This document shows positions 24,463-63,914 of a stretch of DNA of 64,000 nucleotides, in pieces. The notes under the pieces are model-generated. The model saw nothing but the letters and a program-made list of their open reading frames with translations, ran no database searches and was not told the origin of the DNA. The translations under genes and the position numbers were made by a program. This DNA is from Branchiostoma lanceolatum (taxonomy: Eukaryota; Chordata; Leptocardii; Amphioxiformes; Branchiostomatidae): contig NC_089739.1 of the NCBI RefSeq assembly GCF_035083965.1, positions 7,304,001 to 7,368,000 on the forward strand, in the 5' to 3' direction. Position 1 is the stretch's first letter, and each line of letters opens with the position of its first letter.

Positions 24463-26430
24463 CTAGAGGTTTTGAAGGACCTTTCGAATCTTACTTGCAG
24501 CACCTGCAATGAAGTTATGATCCACCCTGTTCCCTGTTATGGAAATTTCTACCCCTCGTTTATCAGCCAGCGTTGGCGAATAATCTTTCCTGACTTCTTC
24601 AGGTGTCACACCATAGAAAATAGGGAAGAAACTTATTCTTCGCATCAAAAACTCCTCAAACTCTTTCCTAGGCCAGTATTTCTTCATCATGTCTTTGCTA
24701 AGAACTAGAACAGCTAGCTTACACGAACTATCCTGGATGGCTGAGGTTATTGATTCTTTAATGCCCTGTGTGTACCCAATGGACCACTTGTCATAGAAGA
24801 CGTTTTCTTTGGGAACGCCTTGATCTACAATCTCGTGGGCCAGCGGTTCCACCAGGGACTCCTTATCTTCGCCTCCATGGACGATGAACAGCTTTTTTGG
24901 ACCTGAAAATACGAAGGGGACATTGACAGCGGTTATAAAACACAGAGTTTCTATATCATTGGAATAGTGCTTGCTTTCAATCAGTCATCAACTTTCAGGT
25001 TTGGAGAAACCCAATTGTAAGGAGCACACCTTTATAGATGACTAGCACAAATAAACAGCATTCTGCAAGGTTTAAGCCCCTGTCACACAGTAGCCTACCA
25101 TGGTTGGGAGCTAGTCGTGAGCAAGGTCATTTGTAGTTGGGAATTGGGGGTTGGTCGGCGAAGTGGTCTTTAAAGTCGTATAACCGACTATACATTTTGA
25201 AAAGTCAAAGTCGGGAAAGTCATATTCTGCTTGGATATGATCAAGGAGCTCAGGATAGATTCCAGGCTACGTACAAACCACCGCACCGCTGATGGTTGGG
25301 GAGTCGCCGGGAGCAAAATCGTGGGGAGGTCTTGAGTGTGTGACAGACTAGGGGCTTTACTAACAAGTGTCAAGTATTCTACTTTGATTTACCTTCCGGA
25401 CTTCCAGGGGAGTCCGATGTAGAAGATGGTCCCCCAGTTGAAGGCGGCCCCGTAGTCTCCTGCTGAGGTTCAGCCCAACTCGAGTCTGAAGAGGATTGAT
25501 GCCCTGTCTCCTGCGTGGGTCGAGTTGTGTCCTGGGGGCTCGATGGTTGCTCCTTTGTGTTCTGCTGACGTTGCCGACTTGTCCCATGCTGAGGTTGCCC
25601 CCCGGTTTCCTGCCTCGCTGTCACTTGCTGTGTATACGTAGCTAGCTCTGTTGAGTATGAAGTACACATTCTTAATGTTATTCTGGACAGACGTATCACA
25701 GATGTAACAAAACCATATATGGCCATAGTTTATTTTTTTTTTAAATGCAGATCAGATTGTGAAAAGTGAATTTTGAAATGAGAAACAAAAATAAAACAGT
25801 GACTTTACCAGGAAATTTAGTCTTCAATCCATCTAGAACGTCGTGAAGGCCAGCGTCGGCCAGAGCCTTCATCAGGACCTCTGTAGTAGCGGCGTTACCC
25901 TTCGTCCTTTTCCACTCCTGTAACAGGTCCATACAGCGGGACCTGTCATCACGGTTTCTGCCTTCTATGTTCCTCATTGCCGGGTCTTCAAATCCCAACC
26001 AGTAGGCGAGGTCTTTCCAGCGATCGGCGACATTCTGCTTAATGTAGAAAAAGTACTTCTCAATCCCTGGAATGAGAAATATCGGTTGTCAGTTTTAAAC
26101 GCTGTCACCTACGTGTAATGGTGGATGGTCAATGCTAACAACACAGCAACGTTTGCGTATAACGTTATATGTATAAGACTGGAGATCAACAATATACCGC
26201 TAGAGGGCCTCATGTCGCTACCAGGCAACCTGTGTCATTTTCTATCAGACTTTTGAATAACATATCATTTAAGTAGATTTAAATGCTTGGTTACCAAGGC
26301 TAGAAGAAAATGTGAACGATCTCAAACGAAATAGAAGATGATGTTAACATCTAGCGAATGTATATAAATGGTTACAGTAAGACATGTTTACTCTACTGCC
26401 AGGCTAAAACGTCTCACCTTGACCAGGCAT
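24463..26430 (-). CDS. Death domain-TIR adaptor, paralogue 1 (321 aa)
   Basis: Four exons: 26418-26430 (ATG plus four codons), 25809-26066, 25393-25647, 24463-24902. They total 966 bases and close in frame with TAG. Residues 5-90 form a death domain (RWKDLAYWLGF near the start, LLQEWKR, AATTEVLMKAL). Residues 91-175 are a Gln/Pro/Ser/Thr-rich linker, probably disordered. Residues 176-321 form a TIR with [12 protein letters not shown] (box 1), [13 protein letters not shown] (BB-loop side) and [19 protein letters not shown] places a Glu near residue 256. Architecture is MyD88-like (DD then TIR), but the TIR resembles plant/bacterial TIRs more than MyD88's. Probably a cytosolic adaptor. All internal junctions are phase 1. 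I do not call it MyD88. Confidence 0.85.
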
Positions 26431-27927: not shown

Positions 27928-30017
27928 CTAACAGCTATCTCGCTTCTTGTTACAGTCAATTTGCATAATTTCGAGTTCTTGTGCAACATCCTGGTGTCCT
28001 GTTTCCTTCACGGCCTGTATCAAGCCTTCTACCTTCGCTTCCCTACCGTTGTAACTCTGCCACATGTGCAGGATCTGCTGACAGCACATCCAGCTATCAT
28101 TATGGTTCTCTTGTTTTATAGCCTGGATCTGGGCAAATTGTAGTCCGAGGTTTGCTGCGAGCTGTGGCCAGCGTACAGCCATATTCGCAGCGATGTAGTT
28201 GAAATATGGCGTCAACTCTGAAGAGGATATAAACAAGATGAAATGTGGTATTGTCATGTGTGGTAAAACAATGGCACAATTGTTTATAATAGTCGGAGAT
28301 ATCGCCTGCGATTGCAAGCACATTTTCATGACTTCTGCGGGCAATCAGAACCGAGACATGGCTAGAAAACATGTTGCAAATATTTTACGTTGAGAGGTTA
28401 GATTTACCTCCCGCCATCGGCTGCTGAGGTTGTCCCATTGCCATTGCCTGAGGTTGCCCCCACATCATCGGTACAACCTGAGGTTGCCCCCATGGCACCG
28501 CCTGAGGTTGCCCCCATTGAGTCAACTGAGGTCGCAACCATGACATTGGGTGAGGTTGCATCCATTGAACCGACTGAGGTTGCACCCATGACATTGATTG
28601 AGGTTGTCCATGGGGAGGCTGTCCATGGGGAGGCTGTCCATGGGGAGGTTGTCCCCTTGTCAAATGCAGAGGTTGCTCTGTTGTCCCTTGAAGAGGTTGC
28701 ACCGATGAAGCCGACTGCCCCCTTGAAGGTTGTTCTATCGGCTCCTGGCAGGGTTGCATCACTGAAAGCATCTGCTCTATGACTGTAGCTAACTCTGTTG
28801 AGTGTAAAGAACACATGCGTATCTTATTACCTGGATGTCTAACCTTCATCAACGTGTAAAGAACACATTCTTAATTTATACACAATCGTATTACGAAAAC
28901 AAACAAGAGTTCGGAGATCTCATACTTCCATGAAATAGTTTGATTATGGAAATAACTACCACATTTGTATAATGTATGCCTTGATATGTACACGGTACAC
29001 CTTAAACTAAATTATACATGCCACAAGGACAAGATTCGTACAATTTAGAACTTGTCTTAGATAGATCATGGCAATTTTGAATTAATAAGGCAAATATCCG
29101 GAAACACAATTACAAACACGCAAGCAAACAACACACAAACAAAAGCACACACCTACAGACCAAAAATAATCCCTCCATTTTTCATGGAGGTAAAAAAAGG
29201 GAGTTGGTCATATATTTTTCCAATGCATAGGAAATGTAGTATTGAAATGACAGCAAAAAAATTCACCAGGAAATCTATTCTTCAATTTAACCAGAACTTC
29301 GCGTAGACCGGCGTCGGATAGAGCCTGCATAAGGGCCTCTGTGGTAGCGGCTTCACCCCTCGTCATTTTCCACTCCTGTAACAGGTCCATACAGCGGGAC
29401 CTGTCATCTCGGTTTCTGCCGTCAATGTTTCTGATTGACGAGTTTTCAACGCCCAAACATTCGGCCAGGTCCTTCCAACGAGAGGCGACTTCTTGTTTGA
29501 TGTAGAAAAAGTACCGCCGCGGAACGTCTGGAATGAGAAATGTTAGTAGTTTTAAATGCTGTCACATATGATATGTGCAATGATTAATGATGATATAGTA
29601 TCTACTAGAGTCCATTCCAAGATCATTCCTAGTCACCCAGAGGGTTGTTATTGTCATCCTTTACAACAGAAAGCATCATATTAGATATATATCTGTGTAT
29701 AGCTTTGCATATATAGGGCTGGAATCGCTGGATAGCGATAAAATTCCGCTAGAGGGCCACACGTCGCTACCAGGAGTTACGTGTATTTATCCTTGGTCGT
29801 ACTTTTCTAATAGACTTTAGAATGGAATGTTACCCAAGTAGAGTAAGTTGATTGCTTGTTATACATTCAGGTAAGAATAAGATGTGAGCGATCTCAAGAA
29901 AGGCAAGAACATGTTAATATCAAGTGAATGGATACATGAAGAGTTACAACGTGCAACGGGATTTGTTTATTTTAGTCCACCTCCACTGACGACAAAAGTC
30001 TCACCTTGGGCAGCCAT
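27928..30017 (-). CDS. Two-death-domain adaptor-like protein, paralogue 2 (316 aa)
   Basis: Four exons: 30005-30017, 29267-29527, 28408-28794, 27928-28217. They sum to 951 bases and close in frame. The first exon, first death domain (RWKDLAECLGV, then the same RNRDDRSRCMDLLQEWK stretch as its neighbours) and linker acceptor match paralogues 1 and 3. The linker is rich in short QPQ/W units. In place of a TIR exon, the last exon encodes a second death domain (RWPQLAANLGL, SWMCCQQILHMW, LIQAVKETGHQDVA) of the subtype found in the membrane genes at 43-52 kb. This appears to be a chimera made by swapping the terminal phase-1 exon. Likely cytosolic; it could bridge TIR adaptors to membrane DD proteins. 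Confidence 0.82.
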
Positions 30018-30649
30018 GTTTCACATACTTCCGGGTCCGGTTTGTTGTATTATAAAGATTCGACTTCTGTACACCTGATCAACTGCAGGATAGAAAAGAT
30101 CAACACCACGTAAGATTGTTACATGAGAAAAGGCTGGTCTGGAGTGTCTTAAATGACACTTAAATCTCTCTAGTTTTTCTTAGGTCGGAATGAAACCAGC
30201 GGACAGCAAAGTCGGACCGCTCTATGTGACGGTACGGCTAAGAGAAAGGAAAACCACACACACCTATAGGCTAAAATACGCAACGTCGTTGATAAAGGTT
30301 AGATATCCAGGAACGTAATAGCGTTTGTAGACTCACTTACATACTTACTATTAACTAGTCCCACCGTGGGCTATAGGCAATCAAGGTTTCGGTGGCAACT
30401 TCGGTAAGCTGTACCGCGCTATACCGGTGACCCCGAAGCACGGTTCTTACTTCCGGGTGCAAGCTAGACACTTCTTGCGGACTTCACGCACATTGCAGCA
30501 TACTTGTATCACCTACACAGTAAAACATTCAGACTTGTGTTTAATGGCTAGCGTTTTAGTCTTCTGTTGTAGCACTGTTAAAATAGAGCTATGTGTCTAT
30601 TTATGTGGCAGTGCTGTAGTGCTGTGCATTCCTGACGTTTGTAATGCAT

Positions 30650-30668
30650 GGGGGGGGGGGGGGGGGGG
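30650..30668 (+). repeat. Poly-G run (19 G)
   Basis: Homopolymer in the intergenic region upstream of the 28-30 kb gene. The run length is prone to assembly error. Confidence 0.9.
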
Positions 30669-31263
30669 CAGCAGTAGCAAGTTTTGACTCCTTGGTACTA
30701 GTCAGTGAGAACGTAAAAATAAAATTCGGTTATAGTGACAACGACTTGAACAAATACTTGGACTCACCTGGACTATTTCAGCAAGTTGTGAACCAAGAAT
30801 GTCACCTGTAAGATGTCTTTTGACACCTGTTTCCGCCTAGAACACGAGACCGCCGCTACCGTCTTCTCGAAATGGTCACCAGTGTGTTTGTCTTTACCTT
30901 TGACCTCAGGTGTGTGTAAGTGACGTCATGTGGAAAGAACCGTCTAGCTCTCTAGCTCAGCTGATTAAACCTAGTCCACACAGGTTTTGTGTCTGTGCGC
31001 GCGGCATGAATAAGTGCTGGGTTTCACGAGTATATACGAAGACAATCTTACTTGTCAACCAGAAAATTTGATATGTATTTTAATTAAAAGTCCAACTAAA
31101 TAAATATATAGCCCGCCATACGACGGAATGGTATTTCATGAAAACTAGAGCATTAGTATTGATACACACACATTTACTGGTGAAAACTAAAAACGCTGGC
31201 CGGCTATGATCATTGTTTCAATAAAATCCGAATAATCACGAAATATATTTCTGAATCCTTGAA

Positions 31264-31269
31264 TTTATT
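31264..31269 (-). terminator. Candidate poly(A) signal, DD-TIR gene 3
   Basis: AATAAA on the minus strand about 250 bases downstream of the TAG at 31521-31523. Position is consistent with a short 3' UTR. Confidence 0.35.
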
Positions 31270-31520
31270 CTGCATCCTTGACATAAGCTATAGCGGCTAT
31301 AATGCCGGTATGAAACACTACGCGCCATGGATGATATACAATATTATCAATTGAGCAAACCGAAATCATATTCGCAGCCAGCATTGCGTGATCATGAAGA
31401 AACACGAATATCCTAACAACGCATCCATACCACCAGGAAACACGAATTAAAATTCTATTGGGATACGGAACATGAGAGAAAACAGCATATTTCCCCATGC
31501 TAGTTGACAAGAGTAGCTGC

Positions 31521-34235
31521 CTAGAGGCTCCGAAGGATCTTTCGGATAGTACTTGCAGTTCCTGCTATCGTGTTATCATCCACCCTGTCCCCTGTTCTGG
31601 GAATTTCTACCCCGCGTGTATCAGCCAAAGTTGGCGAATAATTCTTTCGAACATCTGCAAGGTTCACGCCATAGAAAATGGGGAAAAACCTTATGTCTCG
31701 CTTCAAAAACTCCTCAAACTCTTTCTTTGGCCAGTATTTCTTCATCATGTCTTCGCTAACGACTATGACAGCTAGCTTACAGGACCTATCCTGGGTGGCT
31801 AAGGCTATGGACTCTTTGATACTCGTGACGTGTTCGATGGACCACTCGTCATAGAAGACGTTTTCCTTGGGAACGCCTTGGTCTACAATCTCGTGGGCCA
31901 GCGGTTCCACTAGGGTGTCTTTGTCTTCGCCTCCATGGACGATGAACAGCTTTTTCGGACCTGAAAACATCAAGGAGGCATCGGGTGTGATTGGAAGGCA
32001 CAAGCATGATGTTTGCCTTCATACATATCTAAGGTCTTTAAGTACATCTTGATACATGATTTGCCCAAAAAGTAACATAATTCTGTAGCGGAATGCAAGA
32101 CGCATACATCCAAATGCGAGTCAGATACGGAGGACATTATATTGCTTCATCGTTTTCAAACTTGTCTCAAGTTTATGTAAAATCAGAGCCGAGACATGGT
32201 AAAGAAATAGATGATAAATCGTTTTAAGTTGAAAGGTCAGATTTACCCTCTGGGCGTGCAGGCACGTCCGATTTTCTAGATGGTCCCCCCATCGCCGACA
32301 GAAGTTGCCAATTTGACACTGGCTCAGGTTGCCCCCTTGACACCGACTCAGGTTGCCCCCTTGACACCGACTCAGGTTGCCCCCTTGACACCGACTCAGG
32401 TTGCCAACTTGACACTGGCTCAGGTTGCCAACTTGACACTGGCTCAGGTTGCCCCCTTGACACCGACTCAGGTTGCCCCCTTGACACCGACTCAGGTTGC
32501 CAACTTGACACTGGCTCAGGTTGCCAACTTGACACTGGCTCAGGTTGCCCCCTTGACACCGACTCAGGTTGCCCCCTTGACACCGACTCAGGTTGCCAAC
32601 TTGACACTGGCTCAGGTTGCCAACTTGACACTGGCTCAGGTTGCCAGCTTGACACTGGTTCAGGTTTGCAAAATGACACTGGCCCAGGTTGCCGACTTGA
32701 CACCGGCTGAGGTTGCCCAATAGGAGGTTGCCCCCTTAAAGGTTGCCCCATTGTCTCCTGCTGAGGTTGTGTCAATGTCTCCGGCTGGGTAGTTGGCTCT
32801 GTTGAGTGAGAAGAATAAAATGTTAATGTATTTCTATACACAACAGTAACAAAAAAATCCTGTCACGGATTTTTCTAATGCAAATCAGATTGTGAGAACT
32901 TAAAAATGATATAGAAGAACTTTATTGCATGACAATTGTACATGGTACAAGGTATGGCAACAATTCAAAGTAGAAATATAGAATAAAACTTAACAGAATT
33001 ACTAATACAATGCAATAAGGGCTAGCATACGTTTTTGATATCCATGTAGTATTATAATCGAGTGGGGCTAATCATAAGTTTCGGTATTTTTTCTAATGAC
33101 AAAGCAGTCGTTTGAATACTTACCTTTTTCAATTGTGGGAATTGTTGCGTTTGAATATATATTAAAAACAATCTGTAGCATCGAGACTCTTACAACTTGT
33201 CGTACTTGTTTTGAGAAATGTGAATAACTTGTGAGTGTTGCTTCTTGAAATAAGAAAGAAACTAAAAACTTTCCTTACCAGTACGTATACATTTAGCCTT
33301 TAAACCATGCACAACGCTTTGCAGGCCTGCATTGGACAGTGCCTCCACCAGGACCTCTGTAGTTGCGGCGTCCTTGTTTTTCCTTTTCCACTCCTGTAAC
33401 AGGTCCATACAGCGGGACCTGTCATCGCGGTTTCTGCCGTCAATGTTGTCAATTTCTGGGCCGTCAAAACCTAAGAAGAAGGCGAGGTCCTTCCAGTCAG
33501 AGGTCACTTCCTGTTTCACCTGGTAAAAGTGCTTCTCAACACCTGAAATGAGATACGTATCGTTCAATATTCCATGCATTAGGTCCCTATCAATGCAACT
33601 AGATGTATACCAACACATTACCCAATGACTTCTTGTTTGACCTGGAGAAAGCACTTCTCAATACCTGTAATGAGATACGTATTGTTCAATATCGAATGCA
33701 TTAAGTTCCTAATGTCTATGACATTATCAATCAAAGTAACTCGATGTATACCAACACATTATCCAATGACTCTAGTAACTTACCTACATATTCGCTACAA
33801 CCGGTACCCCCCATGCCTGATGTTAGGCAATTGTCTAGGAAGTTTATACACGGTGTTTCAATATGTCGTGCGAATCATTGTTTTTCATTTGCATGTCTAC
33901 GTGTAATTCATTCTAATTCAGTATAGTTAGATTAATTGTAGAGTGCAATGCACAATTTGTATTTTTGTAAGGCAGAGACAAACACCTACGAAACACAGAA
34001 TGCCTGGTTTCTGTATGCAGAGATGTCCGTTGAAAAATGTAGAATAGTTGAAGAGAGGTCACTGACCAAAATAATCCCCTTGTCACTGGACTACTGTAGT
34101 TAAACATCAACGAACTATTCATCATCAATCTCCATTGTTAACTAATTTCTCTTGCGATATGTACAATGCTGAATAGTCAATGCTAACAACATGTCAAGCT
34201 CCACTGATTACAGATATATTACCTTGACCAGCCAT
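31521..34235 (-). CDS. Death domain-TIR adaptor, paralogue 3, repeat linker (422 aa)
   Basis: Four exons: 34223-34235, 33279-33542, 32247-32798, 31521-31960. They sum to 1,269 bases and close in frame. Residues 5-92 are the death domain (DWKDLAFFLGF, LLQEWKR). Residues 93-276 are the linker, dominated by 24-base tandem units encoding QPESVSRG and QPEPVSSW. Residues 277-422 are the TIR, with [25 protein letters not shown] and [14 protein letters not shown], and WPKKE placing a Glu near 357. Domain order equals paralogue 1, with a linker about 100 residues longer, explained by unit expansion. A partial copy of exon 2 sits in intron 1 (33,627-33,664). Confidence 0.85.
32303..32711 (-). repeat. 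24-base coding tandem repeat with higher-order pattern
   Basis: About sixteen 24-base units lie inside the linker exon of the 31.5-34.2 kb gene. Two unit types, encoding QPESVSRG and QPEPVSSW, alternate mostly in pairs (AABB), giving a 96-base higher-order repeat. Units are nearly identical within a type, pointing to recent expansion. The length keeps the frame. Confidence 0.9.
33503..33780 (+). repeat. Direct duplication containing a broken copy of exon 2
   Basis: Period about 122 bases. The second copy (33,627-33,780) repeats the exon 2 acceptor and its first dozen codons, then diverges and hits a stop. See findings. Confidence 0.75.
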
Positions 34236-36227
34236 GTTTCACATACTTCCGGATCCGGTTTGTCGTAGGATCAGACTTCCGCACACCTGTTCAACTGCAG
34301 GAGAGAAAAGATCATCACTGCTTAAGATTACGACGTCAGAGGACGCCAGTCTGGGGTGTCTGGAAACATACCTGAAGCCTCCTAGTTTCTTGAATACACA
34401 CTATGTTAGAATCATACATAAGCAGCAATTAGACGTGCTAGTGACACGTTAGTTTAGACATCCAGGTACATCTACCGTAATACAGTTCAGAGACACTACA
34501 TGTACTTCACAAAATAGTTCCACCATAGACTATAGGCCATTCAGAACTTGCTCGGGTTCGAGACCGGCCTCAGCGTTACTTCCGGATGAAGACTGGGCCC
34601 TTCCGTCGGCTTACAAGCACACTGCTGAATTATCTAACGACATTCAGACAGGTGCTAGCTGGCGTTCAGTTTCGTTATAACACTAGTCAAGTAGATTCAT
34701 CTTAGGTATGGCCTGTGTGTTCATGTCACGGCGGCATCATGAGTTCTGCGGCGGTTGTGCACAATGTTTGCAGGCAAGGGGGTCCTAGTCAGTATTAAAC
34801 ACAAGTAAAGCATTATCTAACCTTCATCAACGTAAATCAATCGTCCGTCGTTGAAACGAAACGCATGGATATCTCACCTTAACGCTCTCAGGAAGTTGTG
34901 ATCCATGAATATCACCTGTAAGACGTCTTGAACACGGTGTCACCTGTTTCCGCCCAGAACACAAGCCGAACGCCGTCGCCGTATTCTGGAAAAGGTCACC
35001 ACCTGACGTGTTTGCTGCTATTACCTTTGACCTCAGGTGTGACGTCACCAGGTTAAACTAAGTCCACTCAAGTTTTGTGTCTGTGTACGAGGCATGGACA
35101 AATGTTTGGTTGTTTTCGACACGAACCCAGTCTTTCTAGTCAATAAGAATTGAAAATGCAAAGAAGACAGAGTTGTTTTTCTATTCATGAAAACTGGAAC
35201 ATTGATTGTATTGATATAGACACAGTCATTTACTTGCTTGCGATGGAATTCATGCCTTATGGTAACCAAATCAGCCAATGGCACGAAAAGTTTTTTTTCG
35301 TGTCTTTTTTATGATTTGGGTGGGGACTTTCCCTTATAGAACTCAATTGTTTTTGTATCTATTATCATTATTGAAATATTTGATTGTTTTGTATCATTTT
35401 TTCATGATGTACAGGTGGTTTGAGTTTGGTGGATATAAGTTGCACAGCTTGAGCCCGTTGTTACTTTGTATTGTTTACTTTTTTTGATATCTTGTGAATT
35501 GATAAATACGAAATACTCGAATAATTTGAAATCAGCGTTTCTATAAAACCCGAATATTCTCAAAGCACTTTTAATCATTGAATTAATTCTGCAGAGTTGA
35601 CATAGTAGATATAATCTATGAAATATTACCCTCGATTGATAACAAACAATATCGATTATCAAACGAATCATTGTACAGTAACAATATCACTATGTAGTAA
35701 AACAATTGCCCTATCTACATGTATCAACATGATATAGCAGCTTGATTTACCGTGTAACCCTGGGTACTCTTTTCTTCCATAAAACATGTTTATTGTCTCC
35801 TATCTGCGCACAATGATTTCTTACTAGTGGTAATCTTGATTAATGGCATAACTGTACGTTTCATTGTTATTCTTACGTCTTTGTCAACTATAACATCCAT
35901 ATACACTTTACAACTATTACACACAAATTACCTGTAACATAATAGACACAATAGATCAAAACGGAACTTTCTTTGAACGCATGTTTCATTGTAAGTAGAT
36001 GACAATAGAGGACGCCTACCAAAGTTATCCAATCTTTTCAATGTTTTGGGTTGTGAAACTTTCAAGAATGTAATATTTTACCACAAAAAGGCGTGTCATC
36101 TATCATTTTGTCAAAATCAAATGAACACCAATACAGAAAATCAGGATGACCAATGTTTGGAAATATCATAATGACTAAGTAATTGTTCCATAGACTTTTC
36201 AGCTTCTCTATTGATAGTATCATGTCC
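34236..36227. other. Intergenic, 5' flank of DD-TIR gene 3
   Basis: The third copy of the upstream block is at 34,850-35,110 and a kappaB-type site at 35,323. From 35,340 to 36,220 it is AT-rich and I see nothing further. Confidence 0.55.
35323..35332 (+). promoter_or_regulatory. NF-kappaB-type site
   Basis: GGGACTTTCC, a canonical kappaB decamer, lies about 1.1 kb upstream of the first coding exon of the DD-TIR gene at 31.5-34.2 kb and downstream of the receptor gene. Isolated matches are expected by chance in 64 kb, so this one alone is weak. Confidence 0.35.
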
Positions 36228-39200
36228 CTAGAGTTTGCCCTGTAGAATCTTGCGTATCTGACTTGCGGTTCCCGCTATCCAGATTTCATCCACCCTCTCC
36301 CCTGTCCTAGGCACCTCCACTCCCCGTGTATCTGCCAATGTTGGCGAGTAACGCTGTCTAACTTCTGCGGGAGTCACGCCATAGAAAATAGGGAAGAACG
36401 CCTTCCCTTGCCTCAAGAATTCCTCAAACTCTTTCCTAGGCCAGTATTTCTTCTCCATGTCTTCGCTTATCACAATCACTGCTAGTTTACAGGACCTATC
36501 GTGGATTGCTGAGGAGATAGTTTCTTTAATACCCTGTGTGTATCCTATAGACCACTTATCGTAGAACACGTCTTTCTTGGGGAAACCCTGATCTACTATT
36601 TCCCGTACAAGTGGCTCCACTAGCGAGTACTTGTCTTCCCCTCCGTGGACGATGAACAGCTTCTTGGGCGATGAGAATGGCAAGGAGACTGTAAGTGATA
36701 AAAAGTTGGTAGAAAAATGCCAAACTAACAATCCTATCGTTACAGATCTTGAAAGTTGATGTAAAACAATGTTTTCAGTCTTCCCTGAAGTCAAATACCT
36801 TCTTACGATAACTTTCACATGCATACAACTTATCGCCGTAGTGATAAACTTAGAATTAACTTATGGACAGAAACTGTACTTGTGCATGCATGGGAAATAG
36901 TGAATGGTAGATGCTGGATTTTTCCACTTCGTTTTTCGTGACAAATATTGATGATATGATTAACGTTGCATGAAAATGTAAAATACTTAACAGCGCAATT
37001 TTTACCTGAAGTTATGATCCTTTTCATACACCACGGTACAAAAACGACACCAACAAGGAGTAGGCCTATCACTATTGTCTTGGCGATGTCTCCTGATCCA
37101 GAAAATACTGAAAGTAAACCCAGTCAACGGTTATGGAGAAATTTCTATATAATAGCAGATTTTATACCCTCAAGATATATATTCATGATCAGTTGGCCCA
37201 TGTGGCCATGGAGTATGTAACAAATGTTTCAAGAATCTTATTATCACGACAAGCTACTCTTCTTGGATTTTCTAAACTTAGAAACGCCAACAAAATAGAC
37301 CGTTGGATCCGCTTTTTTGTAGTTTCGTCATGCAGTATATTCTTCTGATTCTACTCCGAAGACTGCTTAGCTAACGTACCTGTACAAGGCTGTTCAGTGT
37401 CGCATGCCTTATTCTCCTTTTCTTCACCGACACATTCTTTCCCTCCGTTGGAGGCTGCCGGCTTGTCACAAACACGTAGGCGGGACCGGGTGCCGCTACC
37501 ACAGGTCACGTTACAGGCAGACCACGGGCTCCAACTGGACCAGGAACCGTCAACTACGACAGGAGAGAAAAATCTACAATTAAGTATTGCAATTCTTCTG
37601 ACACAGCCAGTGTGGATTTACCTACCGACGTTTTGATAAGTTGTTTGTCACCTTCCTCTGGGGCCTAATGACTGGTTTTACTTTGCACTAGACTCTTAAT
37701 TAAGTATAGAAAATCACTGTGCAGTACAAGGTACTAGAACTTTTTAACTTTAAGTGAAAAAAGTGTAGAAAATAACTGAAACTGTTCGTTTCCACAGGGT
37801 TTTCTGCAATGTAAAGTTAGCGATGTTACTCTCTGTTATATTTCTATAATACCACAACACTCATTCTATAAGACAGTTCACAATTGGTGTTACAAAATAT
37901 GTGGTGAGTATAATGTAAGTTTTTATTCTTCAAATTAAGCTTCATTTATTGTAATATAAAATAGCAATGGCGATAGCCATGGATGATAAAAATTGAGCAG
38001 TTGCTATGGCTACCTAGAGTACACTGTACGTTATGTAACAGTGTGGTTCAAGCGCCACTGTCTGACCAGTCTAACTGGTCCGGACCTTTTAGCCTAGGGG
38101 TACGTGGTAGGTGCTGTTACACTACCTGGGCAGCCTGTCCCGGTATGGCAGTCCCAGGTACTAGTGTCCTGTGCGGGCCCCTCGCACGGTGCCCCGCCGT
38201 TTGCCGGTGCCGGGTCGGTGCAGGTACGGCTACGAGTCTGTGTCCCGGACCCGCATGTCACGCTACAGGCCGACCAGGGGCTCCAGTCAGACCAGCTGCC
38301 GTCAACTTTAATGGACAAGTGTCGTAAGAAAGGTTGTTGCTATGTAGCAAAAGATACCACACGTTCTGCCTTGTGCAACGGTTGTGCAATACAGTTTATC
38401 ATCATAATGAATTATAGCATTTTCACAGGTTATTAGTAAAGAATATCAGTCAATAACCTAGTTTCAAGAGCAAGACTTTGAGGCGGGCTGGTGGTAATCT
38501 TAACGATAAAATGATAAACTTTGTATCCATCGAATGTATTAGACTCAAATTTATAAAGATTCAACGCCCCCGTACACGTGAGATGACATCAATAATTGTT
38601 CGAAGGTCCGCTTATAAGGTGTCCACGGGCTATATACTAGAAATCGGTGGATACTGGCAAAAAATGTGTTCTACATGAAAATCTACAACGTAGCCGACGG
38701 AAATAAAATGAAAAGAACCGTGTTTGCGTAAGACATGTACTGACCAATCGCCTGTTCACAGTACGTTCCCCGGAACCCCACCGGACATCGGCAGGTCCCG
38801 TCCTGGTTACAGACACCGCCGTTCTGGCACTGGCAATCTGGTCAGAAACATCGGAGGAAACCAAAATTACTAGTAGTTTATAATAGGGAATAACTCATCA
38901 GCTTGGAATAATGGAAGCTCTCTGCAAAGTGAAATCAGACCTGCATCTGTTTCTTTTTAGGCGAAAGGCATAAAGAACACACACTGTTGTAGCTATTACA
39001 TCTTACAAAATGAGTACTTGAATATTGACGAATCATGATACAACCTTAGATATCAAATATTAAACTATATGCAATATGCAACCTGATTTGGCAAATGGAT
39101 GGTTTTTGTAAACGATCAGACGTTTCAGATAACATTCACAATCTTTCGTTAGCAACTGAGCAATTAACTTCATGATTGTCCAAAGTGATATTTCAGAGGC

Positions 39201-40028
39201 ATACCGCGTCATTTTGTTAACGACATATTGAAAAATAAATCTCAACAGAACTCACCTGAAGTACAGAACTTGCCGTACTTCCCAGGTGGACACCTGGCGC
39301 AGCCGTCATTCTCACCGTAGCTGACGTCACGGCACTCTGCGCAGAAGCGGTATTTCTCGCACACCTGGTCATGCTTGACGCCGTCACACGGGCGGCAGTA
39401 GTGCTCCCACTTGTAGAACGCAGAGCATCTGCAAACATACATTAACGTGCCATGGTGAACAATAGCTACAGAGTTAGTTACTAGAGTAGGCTGTAAGAGT
39501 CTCTATAGTACTTCATATACATAGAGTATATAATACCAACCAACCAACCAACCAACCAACCAACCAACCAACCAACCAACCATCCAACCAACCATCCAAC
39601 CAACCAACCAACCAACCAACCAACCAACCAACCAACCAACCAACCAACCAACCAACCATCCAACCAACCAACCAACCAACCAACCAACCAACCAACCAAC
39701 CAACCAACCATCCAACCAACCAACCAACCAACCAACCAACCAACCAACCAACCAACCAAAAAATAAACAAACCAAACAAACAAACAACAAAGCAACCAAA
39801 TAAACAACCGAACAAACAACTAAACAAACAAGAACATAAGCTTCTTAGCGAAGGTAATAAGTACATTGTACATAACGAGCAGACTTACGCCTTGTAAGTA
39901 ATGATGAAGTTGATTCCGGCTGATCCACACGCACAAGTCTCCCTGGTTACCGAGCACAAGCCGACGTCTATGTCTCTGGCTGACGTCACGCCAAACAGGA
40001 ACATCGCAGCCGTTACCAGAGCTGACAT
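36228..40028 (-). CDS. EGF/TSP1-type transmembrane TIR receptor (440 aa)
   Basis: Seven exons: 39889-40028, 39256-39428, 38745-38837, 38126-38305, 37380-37553, 37006-37107, 36228-36688. They total 1,323 bases and end in TAG. Signal peptide 1-17 ([17 protein letters not shown]). A Cys-rich module follows, to about 104. EGF 105-135 ([18 protein letters not shown]). Two thrombospondin type-1 repeats at 136-195 and 196-253 ([18 protein letters not shown] and [18 protein letters not shown]). Membrane helix about 264-281 with basic MKR after it. TIR 296-440 ([44 protein letters not shown] with Glu near 374). Extracellular TSP1 plus cytoplasmic TIR suggests a pattern-recognition or adhesion receptor feeding the neighbouring DD-TIR adaptors. 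The ligand is unknown. Confidence 0.88.
39534..39800 (+). repeat. (AACC)n microsatellite
   Basis: About 225 bases of AACC with single ATCC interruptions at intervals, grading into AAAC-type repeats, and ending in 'AACATAAGCTTCTTAGCGAA', the right end of the dispersed microsatellite-bearing repeat. It lies in intron 1 of the TIR receptor. Confidence 0.9.
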
Positions 40029-43127: not shown

Positions 43128-44841
43128 CTAGTCAGCCAGCATGGCTTCCAGGTTTTCTGCAACATCCTCGTTGCCTGTTTCCCTCACGGCCTGTATCAAA
43201 TCTTCCAATGTTGCTCGTCTGCCCTTGTTTTTGCGCCACGTGTCCAGAACCTGCTGACAACACCTCCAGCAGTTACCGGAGTGCTGTAGCTCCACAGCCC
43301 GGATCTGCGCCCAGGGTAGTCCGAGGTTTCTTGCCAGTTGTTGCCAATCTGCGGGCATCTCTTTGGCGATGGTGTCGATATACTTCTTCATATCTAATGT
43401 CAATGTATGAATAAGGTAAAGATATTGACATCAGATTAAAACTGGTCCAATAAGATTAAACATATGTCAAGTATTGAATACAATTGATATCCTAAGGAAA
43501 AGCGGGCACAGGTATGTAATCCAGATATCATTATAGTCATGTTTCCAAATGTTTCAAAAAGAGAGAAGAAACTACTAGTGATCATCATTAGTTTAGCAAT
43601 AGCCCATAGCTTGTAGGTTTTTCAGTTTTCAATGTTAGAATGTAGCATTTTATCAATTCATGTTTGTAGACCACGTGTGGTCATCTATGCATTTAGCCCC
43701 TTTGGGAAGGAATATGCAATTATGCTATTATTACGTCCCTTCTAGACCACTCACGTGTCCTCTACCCCGACTCGTAAGAAAACTATGATCGATCGCGACA
43801 TCTACTTGGAGATTGTTATCATCACGCTGTGATGTCCATCAACGTTCATTCAATGTTGTGCATGGTAAAACACCAAAAGCATATCTTTTTATACATGTGG
43901 GCGAGTCATGTAACGGATTAAAACAGATCTAGTACGTATTCTTTACGATCATTCCGAGTTTTGCTGTTGGTTATATTTCTGTTCAAACACTGCAGCTAGT
44001 CTGACAATGTCTGAGTGCAAAAATACTATATAGTCATCCGTATGACCGAAATACAGGAGTGCTTACCATCTTGGATGTAATGCACTCCACCTATTACAGC
44101 TGCAACCCCTCCAGTGTAGCGATTTAAAGCATGGGTAGAGGCAATTGCAACCGCAGCAGCGACGTCGACTCCAGCAACAGATCCAACTGAGGATATCAGT
44201 TCCATGTCCGGATCTATATTTCCACGCGTTCTTAAGACATCGAGTAATGGTACGGTTGTTGCCTGGTTTGTTGACACTGAAGGCCATATTGATTTTTCTT
44301 GGGTTTCATCAGAAGACGAGTCTACTTCAGTTATTACTGGTGTTCTATTAACTGGGACATGAGACTGGAACCCTGTTGCTATAGGAGAGTCTATTACTTC
44401 CACGTCATCGTCTTCGCTAGTTTTAGAATGATGCAGTTTTTCTTCCTCACAAGCAACGCTCTCTCCCATGATCACCATTGGTATTACTGTACCTTCAGTG
44501 TCCTCTTCTTGCCTCTTTTCTTTTTCGGACAGCTTGCCGTTTTTCTGTGTCGTCAGATTGGACCTTTTATTCATGTAAACATATATAAGGTAAGAGAGCA
44601 CGACAATGATGGCGACACCCACAACTACTAGAATGGCTTTCAATACGGTCTGATACACGGCAACGAGCACAAAAATGCAAACTATCGCGGCCACAAAAAG
44701 CGCGTATTTCAGCCGCCATGTGCAGAAGTTGTTGGTAGGACAGCTAGCACTGACGGTGACGGTTTCCTTATCTGCATCCGTTCCGGACTGAGCAGTGGTT
44801 GCTTCCGGCTCTTCGGTCGGCAAAGGGGCGTAACGGGCCAT
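43128..44841 (-). CDS. Membrane-anchored death-domain protein, paralogue 1 (346 aa)
   Basis: Two exons, 44067-44841 and 43128-43393, joined in phase 1, total 1,041 bases. The N-terminal 45 residues are Thr/Glu-rich. Two hydrophobic helices follow at about 46-65 and 67-88 with almost no loop, then NKRSN. An acidic Ser-rich linker with EDDDVEV follows. The C-terminal exon is a death domain (DWQQLARNLGL, CWRCCQQVLDTW, LIQAVRETGNEDVAENL). No signal peptide or ectodomain is seen, so the protein is probably a hairpin or single-span membrane anchor with a cytosolic DD. It has the same design as the genes at 46.5 and 50.5 kb. Target membrane is unknown. Confidence 0.83.
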
Positions 44842-46512
44842 TTCTTGGCTGTATTCTCGTCCGTGATTTGGAATCAGTTACTTGGCACCGAAAGGACTCG
44901 ATTCCTCTTTCAGCAGTGAGCTTGTCCACTTAGACTGTTCTTGTCAGCTGACAGCTAGTAGTGTAGCTGTAGTGAAAAAAAAGTAGTTTTTAAATCTAAA
45001 TGAATTCACATAATATGCCAACACTATAAGTTCGGGTATGCACAAATACATCTGTAGTAAACTACTGCCCGTATAGTGTACGTGGCATTACGTGTGCAAT
45101 ACCGCACTAAGGGGATGTCCGTTACGTAACCCTTACACCATTGTTTGTCACCGAAAGAGGGACTTGTGCTCTGCTGCACCCGCCATGTTGCAACCGGGAA
45201 ATTCTGGGGTCGATGCTGTGTAACCGCCACTTTCGTAATTCGACCAAGAAACCACGCAGTAAATCAGTAAAGCTGTTAATGTCTACTAAGAACTTGTAAG
45301 ATGTTGTAACCAGGAAATTCTGGGGTTGACGCTGTTTAACCGCTTTCGTAATTTGACCAAAAAGCACGCATTAAATCAGTAAAGCTGTTAATGTCTACTA
45401 AGAACTTGTAAGAATACACCTACAACTTACGAGGTCTTATACATAAACTTTACCCCCAGGGGCTTGGTGGGAAATGTGTTTTGCAGTAGAAGTAACGGTA
45501 ATACACGAGAGTGAAAGTACGTTTCATGTATTAAACTCAAAGAGCTCTCCATGGCCTTCCGGACTGTTTTGTATCTGAACTTACGGCCCAAATGTAAGCT
45601 CAGTCGGTACAATATATCCTTACAAGAGCTAAATAGTATGGCAATAGGCTTGTGCCGACTATTTAAAATTGGGAAACTTACCTCAAACCGAGAGACCAGC
45701 TTGACTCGTCGATGCGTCGCAGTCTAACTTGAATGACCCCAATGGTTCAATGGTATTTGCCTTATCATTATTGCAGAGTTGGAACTTGGAACACTGGACC
45801 GATAACTGTTTAAAATAGTTGTGGCGCATATAGACGACCGCTGTTGCCTATTTGGTATGAGGTGTCCAACATTTAGTATGGTAACACATGTATCTGTCTA
45901 CAAGTTCGCCGCTTTGGGGCCTATGGGGCCTTTGCTCACTAGTAAGTCAGTGCTTACCGTGTAATCTGATATGGCAGAGTCGGGCCATGAACTTTGAACT
46001 TCCGGCACAGGTAAACATAACAGGTGCGTTTGAATGTGGTGACGTAAACCGTGCGAATGGTTTGTTGATAAGGAAGGCAAAAAGTGGTAGAAATGCATTT
46101 AACTTCTTATAGATCCACAAAAATGACTACGCAGTTATAATGATATACGTAGAATGTCATACCTTTTTATTGTCATGCACAAGACATACATTCAAACATA
46201 CAAAAGGGACCGTGAAGACAAAGTGGTGGCGGACTCAAGTTATATACAACTTATATCCTTGCCGCCACTTGCACAGCATGGAAAATAACATATCTAGCAA
46301 CACAATCAAACATTCAGTGGACAACAAGAAATAAAATAAAAAACACAGTTCAAGTGTAAATCTACGCCTACGTCCAAACTCCTCGCCCAAAGGAAAAAAA
46401 GTTGGACACATATATAAAACTAAACCTCATGACTTTCACAGTATTTATAGGTACGATATCTAATGAAAATAAACCCCACTAGCGCTATAACACGAGTGGT
46501 TTTACTGAGATG
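44842..46512. other. Intergenic between membrane DD genes 1 and 2
   Basis: It contains the 115-base direct duplication. Short open frames here are not supported by family similarity. Confidence 0.55.
45185..45412 (+). repeat. Direct duplication of about 115 bases
   Basis: Copies at 45,185-45,300 and 45,303-45,412 share 'GGAAATTCTGGGGT', 'TTTCGTAATT(C/T)GACCAA' and an identical 'AAATCAGTAAAGCTGTTAAT' end. It is intergenic between two membrane DD genes. Confidence 0.8.
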
Positions 46513-48511
46513 TCAGTCCTGTGCAATGGCCGGGACATCTGTAGACACGCCGTCCAGGTTCTCCAGCATTTCTGCTACACCTTGGTCACCTGTGTCTTTG
46601 ACTGCCTTTATTAAAACTTCCTTCGTTGCTTTGTGACCATAGTTACTGCACCACAAGAACAAGACACGCAAACAACACATCCTGATATCCGTTGGATATT
46701 GCACAGCCACTGTCTCAATCCGAGAGAAAGGTACTCCAAGGTATAGGCCCAGTTCTTGCCAGTGTGCAGGCATCTCCCTGGCGATGAGCATGAAATACCG
46801 CGTCATGATCATCTCTGGTGGAAAATAACATGAAATTGATTTGTTTTCTTGTTTGTTTGTTTGTTTGTTTGTTTAATCACCAATATCGCCACCAACAAAA
46901 AACACCAGACATGAAGTTGCAAATGAGGCCAGTCACATATAAACAAATGTAAGAGTTTGACAGTAATCAGATTGGAAAACGATATTTTGTAATCTGAAGA
47001 TGTGTCTGTTTGTGAAAGTATGTGAGCTATGAAATTGAGGGTCGCTTACCATTTTGTTGAAAAGTCGGTCCTTCCTCAGCACATGCTTCTGTGACTTGAC
47101 TAACAACATCTTGACTTCCCATATACAGTATTGCTCTGGCGACAGCACGATTTTCTAAAGGTAATTCAACTACTGGAAGTGTAAAGGCAGTTCGTTGTAA
47201 TTGTCTTCCTGGGGATTGGCCGAGAACCTGTGACATGAAGTCACTTAGTTGCCTTTGTTGTTGCCATTGTTGGAATGCTTGTATCACTTGTTTGAAGGTA
47301 CTTTGTTTCACTTGTCTTCGTTGCAACCGTCGGAGTCGTAGTGGTCTATAAAGTGGGGTCACCTGCTGATCTTCTTCAGGGTCGTATTCATCTGAAGATG
47401 ATTCTTCCTTATCTTCATTTTCCAGGGCATTATCTGCCGCATCAGATTGGGATATGGTAGTTGAAGATTTCATTTCTTTGTTACCCTGTAGATTAGGTGC
47501 AGTTGTATGCTGCTGATATGTAGTTGGAGCTTCCATGCCTGTGTTATCCTGTAGATTAGGTCCAGCTGTAGGTTGCTGGAATGTAGATGGAGCTTTCATT
47601 TCTGCGTTACCCTGTGGATGAGGTGCAGTTGTAGGTTGCTGGAATGTAGTTGGAGCTTCCATGCCTGTGTTATCCTGTAGATTAGGTCCAGTTTTAGGTT
47701 GCTGGAATGTAGATGGAGCTTTCATTTTTGCGTTACCCTGTAGAAGATTATGTGCAGTTTCAGGTTGCTGGAATATAGTTGGAGCTTCCATTTCTGTGCT
47801 AGCCTGTAGATTTTGTCCAGTTGTAGGTTGCTGGAATGTAGTTAAAGCTTTTATTTCTGTGCTATTCCGCTGATTTAGTCCAGTTGTATGCTGCTGAAAT
47901 GTAGTTGGAGCTTCCATGCCTGTGTTATCCTGTAGATTAGGCCCAGTTGTAGGTTGCTGAAATGTAGATGGAGCTTTCATTTTTGCGTTACCTTGTAGAT
48001 TAGGTACAGTTTCAGGTTGCTGGAATGTAGTTGGAGCTTTAACTTCTATGCAATCCCGTTGATTAGGGGGTCCAGTTCTAGGCTGTTGAAATGTAGTTGA
48101 AGATTTTGTTTCTCTGCTATCCAATTGACTAGGTCCAGTGTCTGGCTGTTGTCTAGTTGAAGCTTTCATTTCTGTTCCATGCTGTTCTGTGGCAGATGGG
48201 ATTTCTTGGCCCTCTGTTGATTCTGCAATAAGCTCTGGGGGTGCTATGCGGTTTTCCTGACCATCTTCTTGTTCTTTTCCGTTTGTGAGCGGATTAGCTT
48301 TGCTCTCCAACAGTTGTTTGACTTTATTGTTCACGTAAACAAATATGCGGTATGAAGATACGACAATGGTGAGAACGACAATGGTGGACAAGGCAATAAT
48401 GAAAACGATGATTACAAGGGTGACTAACACTTTAAGAAGGTCGGAGATACTCGTGATACTGATGTTCACATTGAGGTTGACAATGTTCGTGTCGGTATTG
48501 GACTGACTCAT
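46513..48511 (-). CDS. Membrane-anchored death-domain protein, paralogue 2, long repeat linker (587 aa)
   Basis: Two exons, 47050-48511 and 46513-46814, joined in phase 1, total 1,764 bases. Residues about 25-60 are one long hydrophobic stretch ending FVYVNNKVKQ, homologous to the membrane segments of its paralogues. A linker of roughly 400 residues follows, with about ten imperfect 21-residue units (TFQQPTTGPNLQDN type), then an acidic patch and an Arg/Gln-rich segment (RRLQRRQVK). The last exon is the death domain (HWQELGLYLGV, LIKAVKDTGDQGVAEML), more diverged than the others and with a short extra C-terminal tail. Repeat expansion explains the extra length. Confidence 0.82.
47460..48170 (-). 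repeat. 63-base coding tandem repeat
   Basis: About ten imperfect units of 21 codons (TFQQPTTGPNLQDN-like followed by MEAPT) in the linker of the 46.5-48.5 kb gene. The two variants, MEAPT with NLQDN and MKAPS with GNA, tend to alternate, so the expansion unit may have been a 126-base pair of units. Confidence 0.85.
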
Positions 48512-50457
48512 GTTTGCTGGCTATTTCCAGCTTGGTTGCAGGCGGGGAAAACGGTGACATACAACGTGTGCGACAGTGTGGCTGTAGTGGAAATAACACA
48601 AGATTCACATTGTATGCACTGAATTCACACGACGCTTTATGCAAATACCATAGGCTTATGAAGTTACATTACTCGATATCGCTTGGTGTCGGCTCTAAAT
48701 ACTTGCGCCTCCACTCTGAAATTCTATAAACCAAACGCCAGAGGTTTCTCCATTACGTAGCCACTTATAACGGGAACACCTCCTCGCGATTGCTGCCTGG
48801 AGATAGACATTGAGTATGTTATGGAAAACCCTAGTTCATGCCTACTTGCATGTTATTTCTTTAGAATAGCCTTACGGGATCGAAATGAATTATTAATGTA
48901 TTGTGGTCATAAAGACCGCACCCGTTATTGTTGTCACTGTGTATTGTTAATGTCGCAGTTGGCCTGCGCTTAGTTTGATCAAAATTGAAAAAGAGCAACA
49001 AAACTGGTAATGATAACGAGGCTAGTTCCTACGAGTCGTTTGAAAATCGAGAAGACTCATTTAGATAGAGTTCCCCGTGGCTGCCACAGGCAAAAAATCC
49101 ACTTTTATATCGGAATCATTTTCACAGCAGATTGAAAGTGAAAGTGCTTCCATAGAACTTGAAGATCTTCAAGCCACACTGCAGGAAGATCCATTCGCAT
49201 CTTAGTTCACGTTCTAGATACAAGGACCCTTTCCACCACGCACGTCCCCTTTAAGCCCTTAATACCTTTGCAAGACGTTACGGGTATCTGAATAGGTGCA
49301 TGCGGACTGGTAAAGTTGTAAAACTCACCCGGAAACTCACTTCAGGCACTCCATGGGGAAAACGAATCGAAACCATGACCCGAGTAAAAAAGGTCACAGA
49401 GACCGCGGTGGCGCGAAAAGCATTTGCTTAATGTTTGCGAGTTCGCGTATTAGATTAATAAAAAAACAATACGCATGCATGATTTATTCACGGAAAATCA
49501 GTTGTGTACAATTGAGCGCGTTATGGCCATGTATTCCCTAATTTCTGTGGAAGTTGTTTGCATTCTTTTGCCTTCTTTACATGCCCATGAGGCCTTTTGT
49601 CAGGTAATCCGATCTGAAGGGTTGACGTCACACAAGGACTCTGGACCTGTTTAATAAACTTGTCGCACCTATCAAATAGCGAACATTCTTTGAAAAGTAG
49701 CTGGGGGTTGTAGTCGCATTTGTTTCAAATACCCTTATTTCAAGTTGTATGGCTACGGAATACTATATTCTATCGGTGTACGAAAATCCTGATATTGAAT
49801 TTTTTTCAAGTAATGCACCGCTTAATGTCCGGTGACGTGCTTCGCGAAATGGAGTATGAAATTAAAGCTACTTGGTAAAACTAGGAAGACTGAAATATCA
49901 TCATCATTTATGGGTTCCGCATCTGCATCTGCATCTTATTATCATATTCATATTTCTTGTCTGTTATTTCCTATCATCTAGAAAAAAAAATCAAAGCATT
50001 TGATTCAAAGCAAATCAACTTCTCTCTTACTCTTGCTTTTATTTGTAATGCGCATTGATACAGTATAAACTATGGACAAAGTATGATACATCAGGTTTGA
50101 TCAGTGAGAAAAATGTAATATTTACACATAAATGATGCAGCACTGATCTTGAAGTCCTTTACACAAGCTGGGGTAGTACAATATGCACAAACTGGACACT
50201 GACTTGAGCCTCAAATCTAAACATCTAAAAACATCCTCATATGACAGAGCAGTATCTTTACACCTATATGTGATGTATATATTTATATCTCATATTTCAA
50301 AACTAAAAAAAAGCTATTACTTAAGGCAGAACTTTATCCTTTATCGAGTCATTGGTGTGGCTGTTCAGCACCCACAGCCAGGGCTGCCCAACTAGCATGT
50401 AACATACAAGCAAACATTAAGGGATCTAGTGAAGACAACACTCGTTTGGCATCAGTT
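48512..50457. other. Intergenic between membrane DD genes 2 and 3
   Basis: Positions 48,780-49,600 resemble 52,490-53,400, so the tandem duplication extends well upstream of the coding region and includes the putative noncoding first exon. Confidence 0.55.
49329..49350 (-). other. Putative 5' noncoding exon end of the 46.5-48.5 kb gene
   Basis: The counterpart of the 53.0-kb site: TTTCCGG then GTGAGT at 49323-49328, about 0.8 kb upstream of the ATG at 48511, within the duplicated upstream block. It supports an untranslated first exon, but no transcript evidence is available here. Confidence 0.35.
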
Positions 50458-52083
50458 CTAGTCTAACTGCAAAGCTTCCAGATTTTCTGCAACATCCTGG
50501 TGACCAGTTTCCCTCACAGCCTGTATCAAGTCTTCCACTGTTGCTTGTACGCCGTTGTTACTGCGCCACATGTGCAGAACCTGGTGACAACACATCCAGC
50601 ATTCGCCGGAGTGCTCTGCTTTCACAGCTCGGATCTGTTCGAAAGTCACGTGGAGGTTTGTGGCCAGTTGTTTCCAGTCTGCAGGCATCTTTTCAGCGAT
50701 GATGTTGAAATACGGCTTCATCACTAACGGAAATAAGAATAGACACCAGATGTAAGTGAAAGATCAAAATTATGTGACTGTTTCGCCATTATACAGCCCC
50801 TTTTTTAATAGCTTGTTTACAAGTACTTGTGACATCACAGCACCAATGCTGCTTAGTTTAATTTGGAAGTTACAGTATTATAAGCTATAGATTTTCACAT
50901 GTATTGTGTTTTTGTGCGTCAATATTACGTATAACGTTACGCTTCGAGCACCTTCATAATTAAGGAATAGCAAAACGTCCTTTGTCATCCTATATCAGAT
51001 GTATAGCAATGCACATTAAACAGAACGCATTGCAGAAACTGGAATGCGCATCAAAAGCCAGATGTCACACAGTCAATCATTCAAGTTGGAATTAAGGAAT
51101 TAAGGAATAAAGGTTTGCATACCGTCTTGGTCCACAAAATACGGTCCATCCACTGCTGTGGTTCGACGGCGAACAACCATGCTTTCGCTTCCGGTAGTAT
51201 GCCTTGCTCTGACGACAGCGCAGTTTTCGGAAGGGAATCCAGCGAATCTAAATATTGGAGACGTAGACATGAAGTCGTTCGGTTGCATTAGTCTTCCTGG
51301 CAGCTGTTGAAGAAGTTGTGACCTGAAGGCAGCTTGTTGAAATTCTTCTTGTTGTACGAGTAGCTGGATTAGTAAACGTTGTGCTACTTGTATGTCGTTA
51401 CTTTGAGGCGATTGCCTTTGTCTTTGTTGCTCGTGGAATGGTTGTGATCTACAAAGTGGGGTCATCTGGCCATAGGCTCCACCAGGAACAGGATCGTCTT
51501 CATCTTCAATCGGAGGCAAGTCATCCTCTTCTGTAGCCATGGTCACTGGGGCACTGTTGACTACATCCGGCTGTAACCCAGCAGTTGAACCGATGATTTC
51601 TGTGTCATCATGTTTGTTGGTAACAGTTTCAGCCGGGCGCCGATGTGCATGTTGTGTTTCGTTCGTGCGTGAAATTTCGGAGTCTATATTTCCCATGTTG
51701 ACCACTGAACCCGCAGCACGAATTTCACTACTCTGATCTTGTCTCTGTTCTTTTGTGAGGTACTTTATGATGTTGAACTGTGTCGTGAGGTTGACTTTGT
51801 TGTTCATGTATACGTACATCACGTATGAAAGCGCCACCATGACGACAACGACTAGGACTATTATGAGGGCTTTCATGACAGTTTGGTACACGGCGACGGC
51901 CACAAAAAGACAAACTGAAACAGCCACAAGAATCGCGTATGCTCCTCTTAGGTCGGAGATGTTGGTAGAATAGCTGAAGTTCAAACGAATGTTGAGGCTT
52001 ATGTTGACCGTGTCTGTGTCAGTATCGGAGTGGATCATACTTGTTTCTGGTGCTTCGGTCGGTGCAGGAGTGTAGGTAGCCAT
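50458..52083 (-). CDS. Membrane-anchored death-domain protein, paralogue 3 (408 aa)
   Basis: Two exons, 51123-52083 and 50458-50723, joined in phase 1, total 1,227 bases. I chose the ATG giving MATYTPAPTE because it aligns with MARYAPLPTE of the 43-kb paralogue; an in-frame ATG 18 bases upstream (52,101) would add six residues. Hydrophobic helices lie at about 48-67 and 70-91, ending YVYMNNKVNLT. The linker is acidic, then Gln-rich. The death domain has DWKQLATNLHV, CWMCCHQVLHMW and LIQAVRETGHQDVAENL, very close to the second death domain of the gene at 27.9-30.0 kb. Confidence 0.83.
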
Positions 52084-52471
52084 TTCATCGATCGGTTGCA
52101 TGCTTCAGGCAGGAACACACACGATCTGCAGACTACACTTCAGTCTGACTGTAAAGGAAGAAATGCAAGATGCCATTTACTCTCCAATGATTCACATACA
52201 TGTACTTGTAACATGCGCATACCTTAACAAGTTTTATGTAGCTGAAAAAGGGACACTTCACAATCAACGCGGATGAATATCCGGAAATAAGGCTCGCACC
52301 CACACTCAATTTTCACCCAAAACACACCAACTCATACGCTTTTCAGCCATGTTAACATTCAATGTCAATTCGAAGCACATAATTTATGTGAAATGTGAAC
52401 TCAGACCCTCGAAACTCTTTCGTGACTTTTTGTCGCACACTACCACGGGAACTGTAGTGTGTCACCCTTAA

Positions 52472-54497: not shown

Positions 54498-63914
<9,417 letters not shown>

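Follow-up and report, generated by a model that had tools for sequence, protein, structure and literature searches.

Animal TIR receptors are usually interpreted through the pairing of Toll-like receptors (TLRs) with MyD88. Other combinations have been listed, however, with EGF-TIR given as a class in oyster (PMC4346834) and represented by two genes in Aplysia (PMC9334734, table 5), and with 28 TIR domain combinations recorded for amphioxus, 20 of which are reported to be specific to it (PMC2575513). As far as the domain listings in these sources go, they make the premise of an earlier note on the DNA studied here, that animal TIR receptors use LRR or Ig ectodomains, too strong, and because of them a partner that is neither LRR nor Ig does not in itself constitute a new class. 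The architecture described below is noncanonical, as that note had held, but it is a variant rather than the new sensor class that was also proposed. No joining of TSP1 with TIR was found in a literature search covering titles and abstract openings, and the amphioxus partner list of PMC2575513 may already include one.

The ancestry of such TIR domains has also received attention. It has been argued that animal TIR_2 domains arrived by transfer from bacteria (PMC11797021), and a preprint (PMC13142454) supports a bacterial origin for the TIR of SARM1, cautions that function is not determined by TIR kinship, and describes several eukaryotic TIR clades as still unstudied.

The present analysis covers a window of 64,000 nt from Branchiostoma lanceolatum (NC_089739.1), this being the whole stretch of DNA that was analysed, and coordinates are given as positions within it. 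The window contains a predicted receptor that seems to bear the TIR type of bacterial and plant defence enzymes, and this TIR, together with a flanking Death-TIR array, is more unusual than the ectodomain; neither of the two was raised in the earlier note. The main reading, to which a probability of roughly 0.45 is given, is that an exon-shuffled receptor signals by TIR-TIR assembly with neighbouring Death-TIR adaptors, possibly cutting NAD+. The parts are seen in the sequence, and each step of the signalling is proposed on the basis of how such domains pair and where the genes lie.

Receptor gene and predicted domain architecture

The receptor gene was rebuilt from splice sites on the minus strand, where it runs from 40028 to 36228 over seven exons totalling 1323 nt, or 440 codons and a stop, with zero internal stops. 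All six introns are GT-AG, their phases being 2, 1, 1, 1, 1 and 1 (five of six in phase 1), and an in-frame TAG starts 6 nt upstream of the ATG. This rebuild bears out the seven-exon frame of exactly 440 codons reported earlier, down to its coordinates.

Exon 1 (39889..40028) holds the ATG, a hydrophobic run predicted to be a signal peptide, and the beginning of a Cys-rich module that continues in exon 2 (39256..39428); these two exons alone matched zero Pfam families up to E = 1. A (CCAA)n array of 297 bp occupies 39535-39831, inside intron 1. Exon 3 (38745..38837) encodes an EGF-like domain, scoring 0.011 in Pfam and thus below the cut-off, and exons 1-3 matched the PDB sequences of WIF-1 (7e-10) and Tie2 (5e-5), although these are whole-chain E values and the best single stretch of WIF-1 reached just 0.0017. 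Two TSP1 repeats follow in exon 4 (38126..38305) and exon 5 (37380..37553), with two stretches matching Pfam TSP_1 above the cut-off (3e-25). Both repeats bear WxxWxxW and CxxTCGSG, the latter as CSVTCGSG in the first and CNVTCGSG in the second, which are sugar-addition motifs of the TSP1 domain.

Exon 6 (37006..37107) encodes a predicted single transmembrane (TM) helix followed by KR, and this is the one TM-like stretch besides the hydrophobic N-terminus (Kyte-Doolittle 19-residue mean of 2.24 at residues 261-279). The predicted cytoplasmic TIR, apparently of the bacterial and plant enzyme type, is encoded by exon 7 (36228..36688). The Pfam search up to E = 1 returned TSP1 families, TIR and the weak EGF only, with no LRR, and the Pfam search likewise gave no Ig, ARM or SAM domain. 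For the predicted transcript, an architecture in which a single TM helix links an EGF/TSP1 ectodomain to a cytoplasmic TIR is well supported. The domain order that had been put forward for this gene, from signal peptide and Cys-rich module through EGF, the pair of TSP1 repeats and the helix to the TIR, holds as a prediction from Pfam, PDB matches and hydropathy.

Genes flanking the receptor

Repeat scanning and tblastn place the receptor in an array of genes that all lie on the minus strand, with genes A, C and B downstream and three transmembrane-Death genes upstream. Gene A (31521..34235; exons 34223-34235, 33279-33542, 32247-32798 and 31521-31960) encodes a Death-linker-TIR protein of 422 aa (Pfam Death 8e-15, TIR_2 4.5e-9), as does gene B (24463..26430; exons 26418-26430, 25809-26066, 25393-25647 and 24463-24902) with 321 aa (Death 1.7e-13, TIR_2 4.3e-10). 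Both thus carry a Death domain, an intermediate region and a TIR, as MyD88 does. Gene C (27928..30017; exons 30005-30017, 29267-29527, 28408-28794 and 27928-28217) encodes a Death-linker-Death protein of 316 aa (Death 2.9e-15 and 3.9e-14). Each of the three opens with a 13-nt start exon (MxxQ), and every junction is in phase 1.

The upstream genes each consist of a TM-bearing open frame and a Death exon, with provisional starts and with splice sites that were read by eye and are also in phase 1. The first (50458..52104) has a TM-bearing open frame at 51100-52104 (Death exon 6e-15), the second (46513..48520) an open frame with tandem repeats at 47027-48520 (1.6e-7), and the third (43128..44877) an open frame at 44026-44877 (8e-17). 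All seven Death exons tested across the array exceed the Pfam cut-off. They fall into two groups. One, 63-73% identical, comprises the Death exons of A and B together with the first Death exon of C; in the other, the second Death exon of C shows 41-59% identity to every one of the three transmembrane-Death exons. Between the two groups, identity among the tblastn matches found is 27-31%. Gene C therefore joins both kinds, its first Death being of the Death-TIR kind and its second of the transmembrane-Death kind.

Such a gene content would suit a lancelet, given the expansion of Death and TIR genes in that group (see also PMC12373286). Several further features of the array were observed. Genes A, C and B (24463-34235) have common 5' blocks, with a second Death in C in place of the TIR of A and B, which amounts to a last-exon swap. 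The linkers of gene A (32247-32798) and gene C (28408-28794) are Gln/Pro/Ser-rich, that of A with 24-nt repeats, and 63-nt repeats are found at 47457-48175 in the second transmembrane-Death gene; the length of repeat-built linkers may vary from individual to individual. A conserved block containing ACCTGAGGTCAAAGGTAA lies upstream of the three Death genes A, C and B at 34853-35041, 30763-30914 and 27059-27221, and is perhaps promoter or 5' untranslated sequence. Coding exons were considered at these positions (about 34.9, 30.8 and 27.1 kb) and rejected because the frames break. To the right of the array, an MSH6 exon on the minus strand (59719-60051; PDB MSH6 4e-18) is a possible gene-order anchor, and the minus strand at 12-22 kb holds an F5/8 type C domain exon (8e-7) with weaker F5/8 and chitin-binding matches.

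Continuity between ectodomain and TIR

The seven-exon transcript is a prediction from genomic sequence, and the array contains two Death-TIR genes, which lends something to the view that two separate genes are present, namely one for an EGF-TSP1 protein, either secreted or in the membrane, and a degenerate copy of a Death-TIR gene reduced to its TIR exon, with no fused transcript. Intron 6 also stays open in frame beyond the TM exon as far as 36830 (ORF 36830-37123, minus strand), so that a TIR-less form with a retained intron is conceivable. The frame is nevertheless intact, with matching phases, over all seven exons, and the TM exon sits between ectodomain and TIR, as a single fused gene would have it. 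Counting exon 6, the minus strand has three places where a phase-1-to-phase-1 exon carries a TM-like stretch, which puts the chance of either other candidate landing in the 691-nt gap between the TSP1 and TIR exons at about 2%, under an acceptor rule that was relaxed post hoc, the stricter rule having missed exon 6 itself.

A degenerate Death-TIR copy also fits poorly with the contents of the gene. No Death exon of the neighbouring kind was found inside it by tblastn, nor was any linker resembling those of A, B or C, or a start exon of 13 nt like theirs, the linkers of A and B having served as queries. The TIR itself is under strong purifying selection, with dN/dS of 0.08-0.13 against the two paralogues in genes A and B, compared with 0.29-0.39 between A and B. 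Two separate genes are considered improbable.

Affinities of the TIR domain

The receptor TIR matches Pfam TIR_2 above the cut-off (1.6e-7) and PF01582 TIR below it (0.0025). By sequence profile and predicted fold its nearest relatives among the matches listed are bacterial (PdTIR, AbTIR) and then plant, with SARM1 more distant, and it also matches anti-phage TIR profiles. At E 1e-5 the window TIR reaches bacterial TIRs only, whereas the TLR2 and MyD88 controls match each other and zero bacterial TIRs. Neither TLR nor MyD88 appeared up to E = 10 in the sequence comparison of the receptor TIR, the window TIRs reached bacterial sequences and not MyD88 at E 10 in blastp, and both TLR and MyD88 are absent among the best 50 fold matches listed, which does not prove that they are lacking further down, so that the fold ranking agrees with the sequence but could have missed a family beyond those listed. 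The stretch common to window and bacterial TIRs lies around PIxxxVTxxEV and SPxLAD, and in seven of the eight bacterial proteins compared by eye the TIR is C-terminal, behind another region, with no ectodomain like that of the receptor noticed in this inspection. In the TIR alignment that was used, the first 6 or so codons of the A and B stretches are intronic according to the gene models, which affects the profile and fold model; identity and dN/dS recomputed from coding sequence alone changed little. TIR relatives were also sought in viral and genome contig scans, with none found, but the close peptide patterns used mean that this result says little.

Together, these comparisons suggest that the receptor TIR appears to resemble bacterial and plant enzyme TIRs more than animal Toll TIRs. 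This bears on whether the protein is an ordinary Toll-like scaffold, whose TIR recruits MyD88 and drives NF-kB, its enzyme-type likeness being mere ancestry. A single TM helix with a cytoplasmic TIR is, by prediction, the membrane topology of a TLR, and PF01582 is matched by all three window TIRs, that of gene B above the cut-off and those of the receptor and gene A below. The behaviour of the controls at E 1e-5 points the other way, however, as does the fold ranking of the best 50 matches, and such a scaffold is therefore regarded as doubtful, well short of an even chance.

A further alternative is a ligand-gated NADase receptor, in which the TIR would act alone, clustering leading to NAD+ cleavage and then to ADP-ribose signals or cell death, as in plant TIR immune receptors or SARM1, with the Death-TIR neighbours not acting as partners. 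Consistent with this are the bacterial and plant affinities in sequence and fold, some of these relatives being named NAD+ hydrolases in PDB, the anti-phage profile matches, and the WxxxE motif of the receptor TIR (W370, E374). Here E374 is equivalent to the glutamate of WVHKE in SARM1, E642 in the chain numbering of the control, a residue altered in PDB entry 7cm7 according to its title. The motif is present in all three window TIRs, all eight bacterial loci, AbTIR, PdTIR and SARM1, and is absent from MyD88, but it is also carried by TLR2. It was therefore rejected as proof of NADase activity, for which it is not diagnostic, and in the receptor it permits such activity rather than demonstrating it. 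A receptor working alone would also leave neighbours with closely similar TIRs without explanation, and this alternative is considered unlikely, although it has more in its favour than a Toll-like scaffold.

Origin of receptor and adaptors

The TIR exons of the receptor, A and B are alike in phase and sequence, the receptor TIR being identical to that of gene A at 105 of 145 residues and to that of gene B at 110 of 145 (72-76%). The receptor exon has its acceptor 18 nt farther upstream, in what is intron in A and B. Synonymous divergence (dS) is 1.2-1.7 between the receptor and the adaptors A and B, which is near saturation, and 0.36-0.46 between A and B. By this measure the receptor-adaptor split would be older than that between A and B, and the arrangement would not be a very recent accident, both forms having been kept. 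The TIR protein tree instead pairs the receptor with gene A (94/83), weakly and against dS; it is not decisive, because the human sequences form very long branches whose placement may be wrong.

In the main reading, the receptor is a type I membrane protein built by phase-1 exon shuffling. Taken further, the locus may be a second Toll-like pathway, independently assembled: an animal would have acquired a bacterial-type (anti-phage-like) TIR, which exon shuffling then divided between a membrane receptor and cytosolic Death-TIR adaptors. The genes for the receptor, the adaptors, the Death-Death bridge and the membrane Death outputs would have remained neighbours within about 28 kb, and NAD+ cleavage would form part of the signal. 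This wider history is offered with considerable doubt.

Proposed signalling

In the main reading, assembly of the receptor with its neighbouring adaptors, contact of a ligand or surface with the TSP1/EGF part would cluster the receptor. The clustered enzyme-type TIR would then form an assembly with its counterparts in the Death-TIR proteins, in a manner comparable to TLR with MyD88 but in another TIR lineage. From there, the Death domains could relay through the Death-Death protein of gene C to the transmembrane-Death proteins, and cleavage of NAD+ by the assembled TIRs is also possible. With adaptors of matching TIR adjoining the receptor, the locus offers a compact test of whether animal enzyme-type TIRs are wired to surface sensing, and of whether one exon can give rise to both receptor and adaptor.

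Comparison with known systems

Plant TIR immune receptors are intracellular NB-ARC-LRR proteins, in contrast to the amphioxus membrane receptor with its TSP1 and EGF modules. Bacterial TIRs of the PdTIR and AbTIR kind and anti-phage TIR effectors appear closest to the receptor TIR by sequence and fold among the matches listed. SARM1 offers a likeness within animals, its TIR being regarded as bacterial in origin (PMC13142454) and having the WxxxE glutamate in common with the receptor, but its ARM and SAM domains are absent here. With the mollusc EGF-TIR proteins of oyster and Aplysia the receptor has EGF and TIR in one protein, its EGF being below the Pfam cut-off and matched in PDB, while its TSP1 repeats are unmentioned in the domain listings of those sources, on which the comparison is based. 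The TLR and MyD88 system is similar in combining a receptor bearing a cytoplasmic TIR with Death-TIR adaptors. The amphioxus receptor differs from it, however, in having no LRR and a TIR that appears nearest to bacterial and plant ones, and in that the adaptor genes adjoin the gene of the receptor itself.
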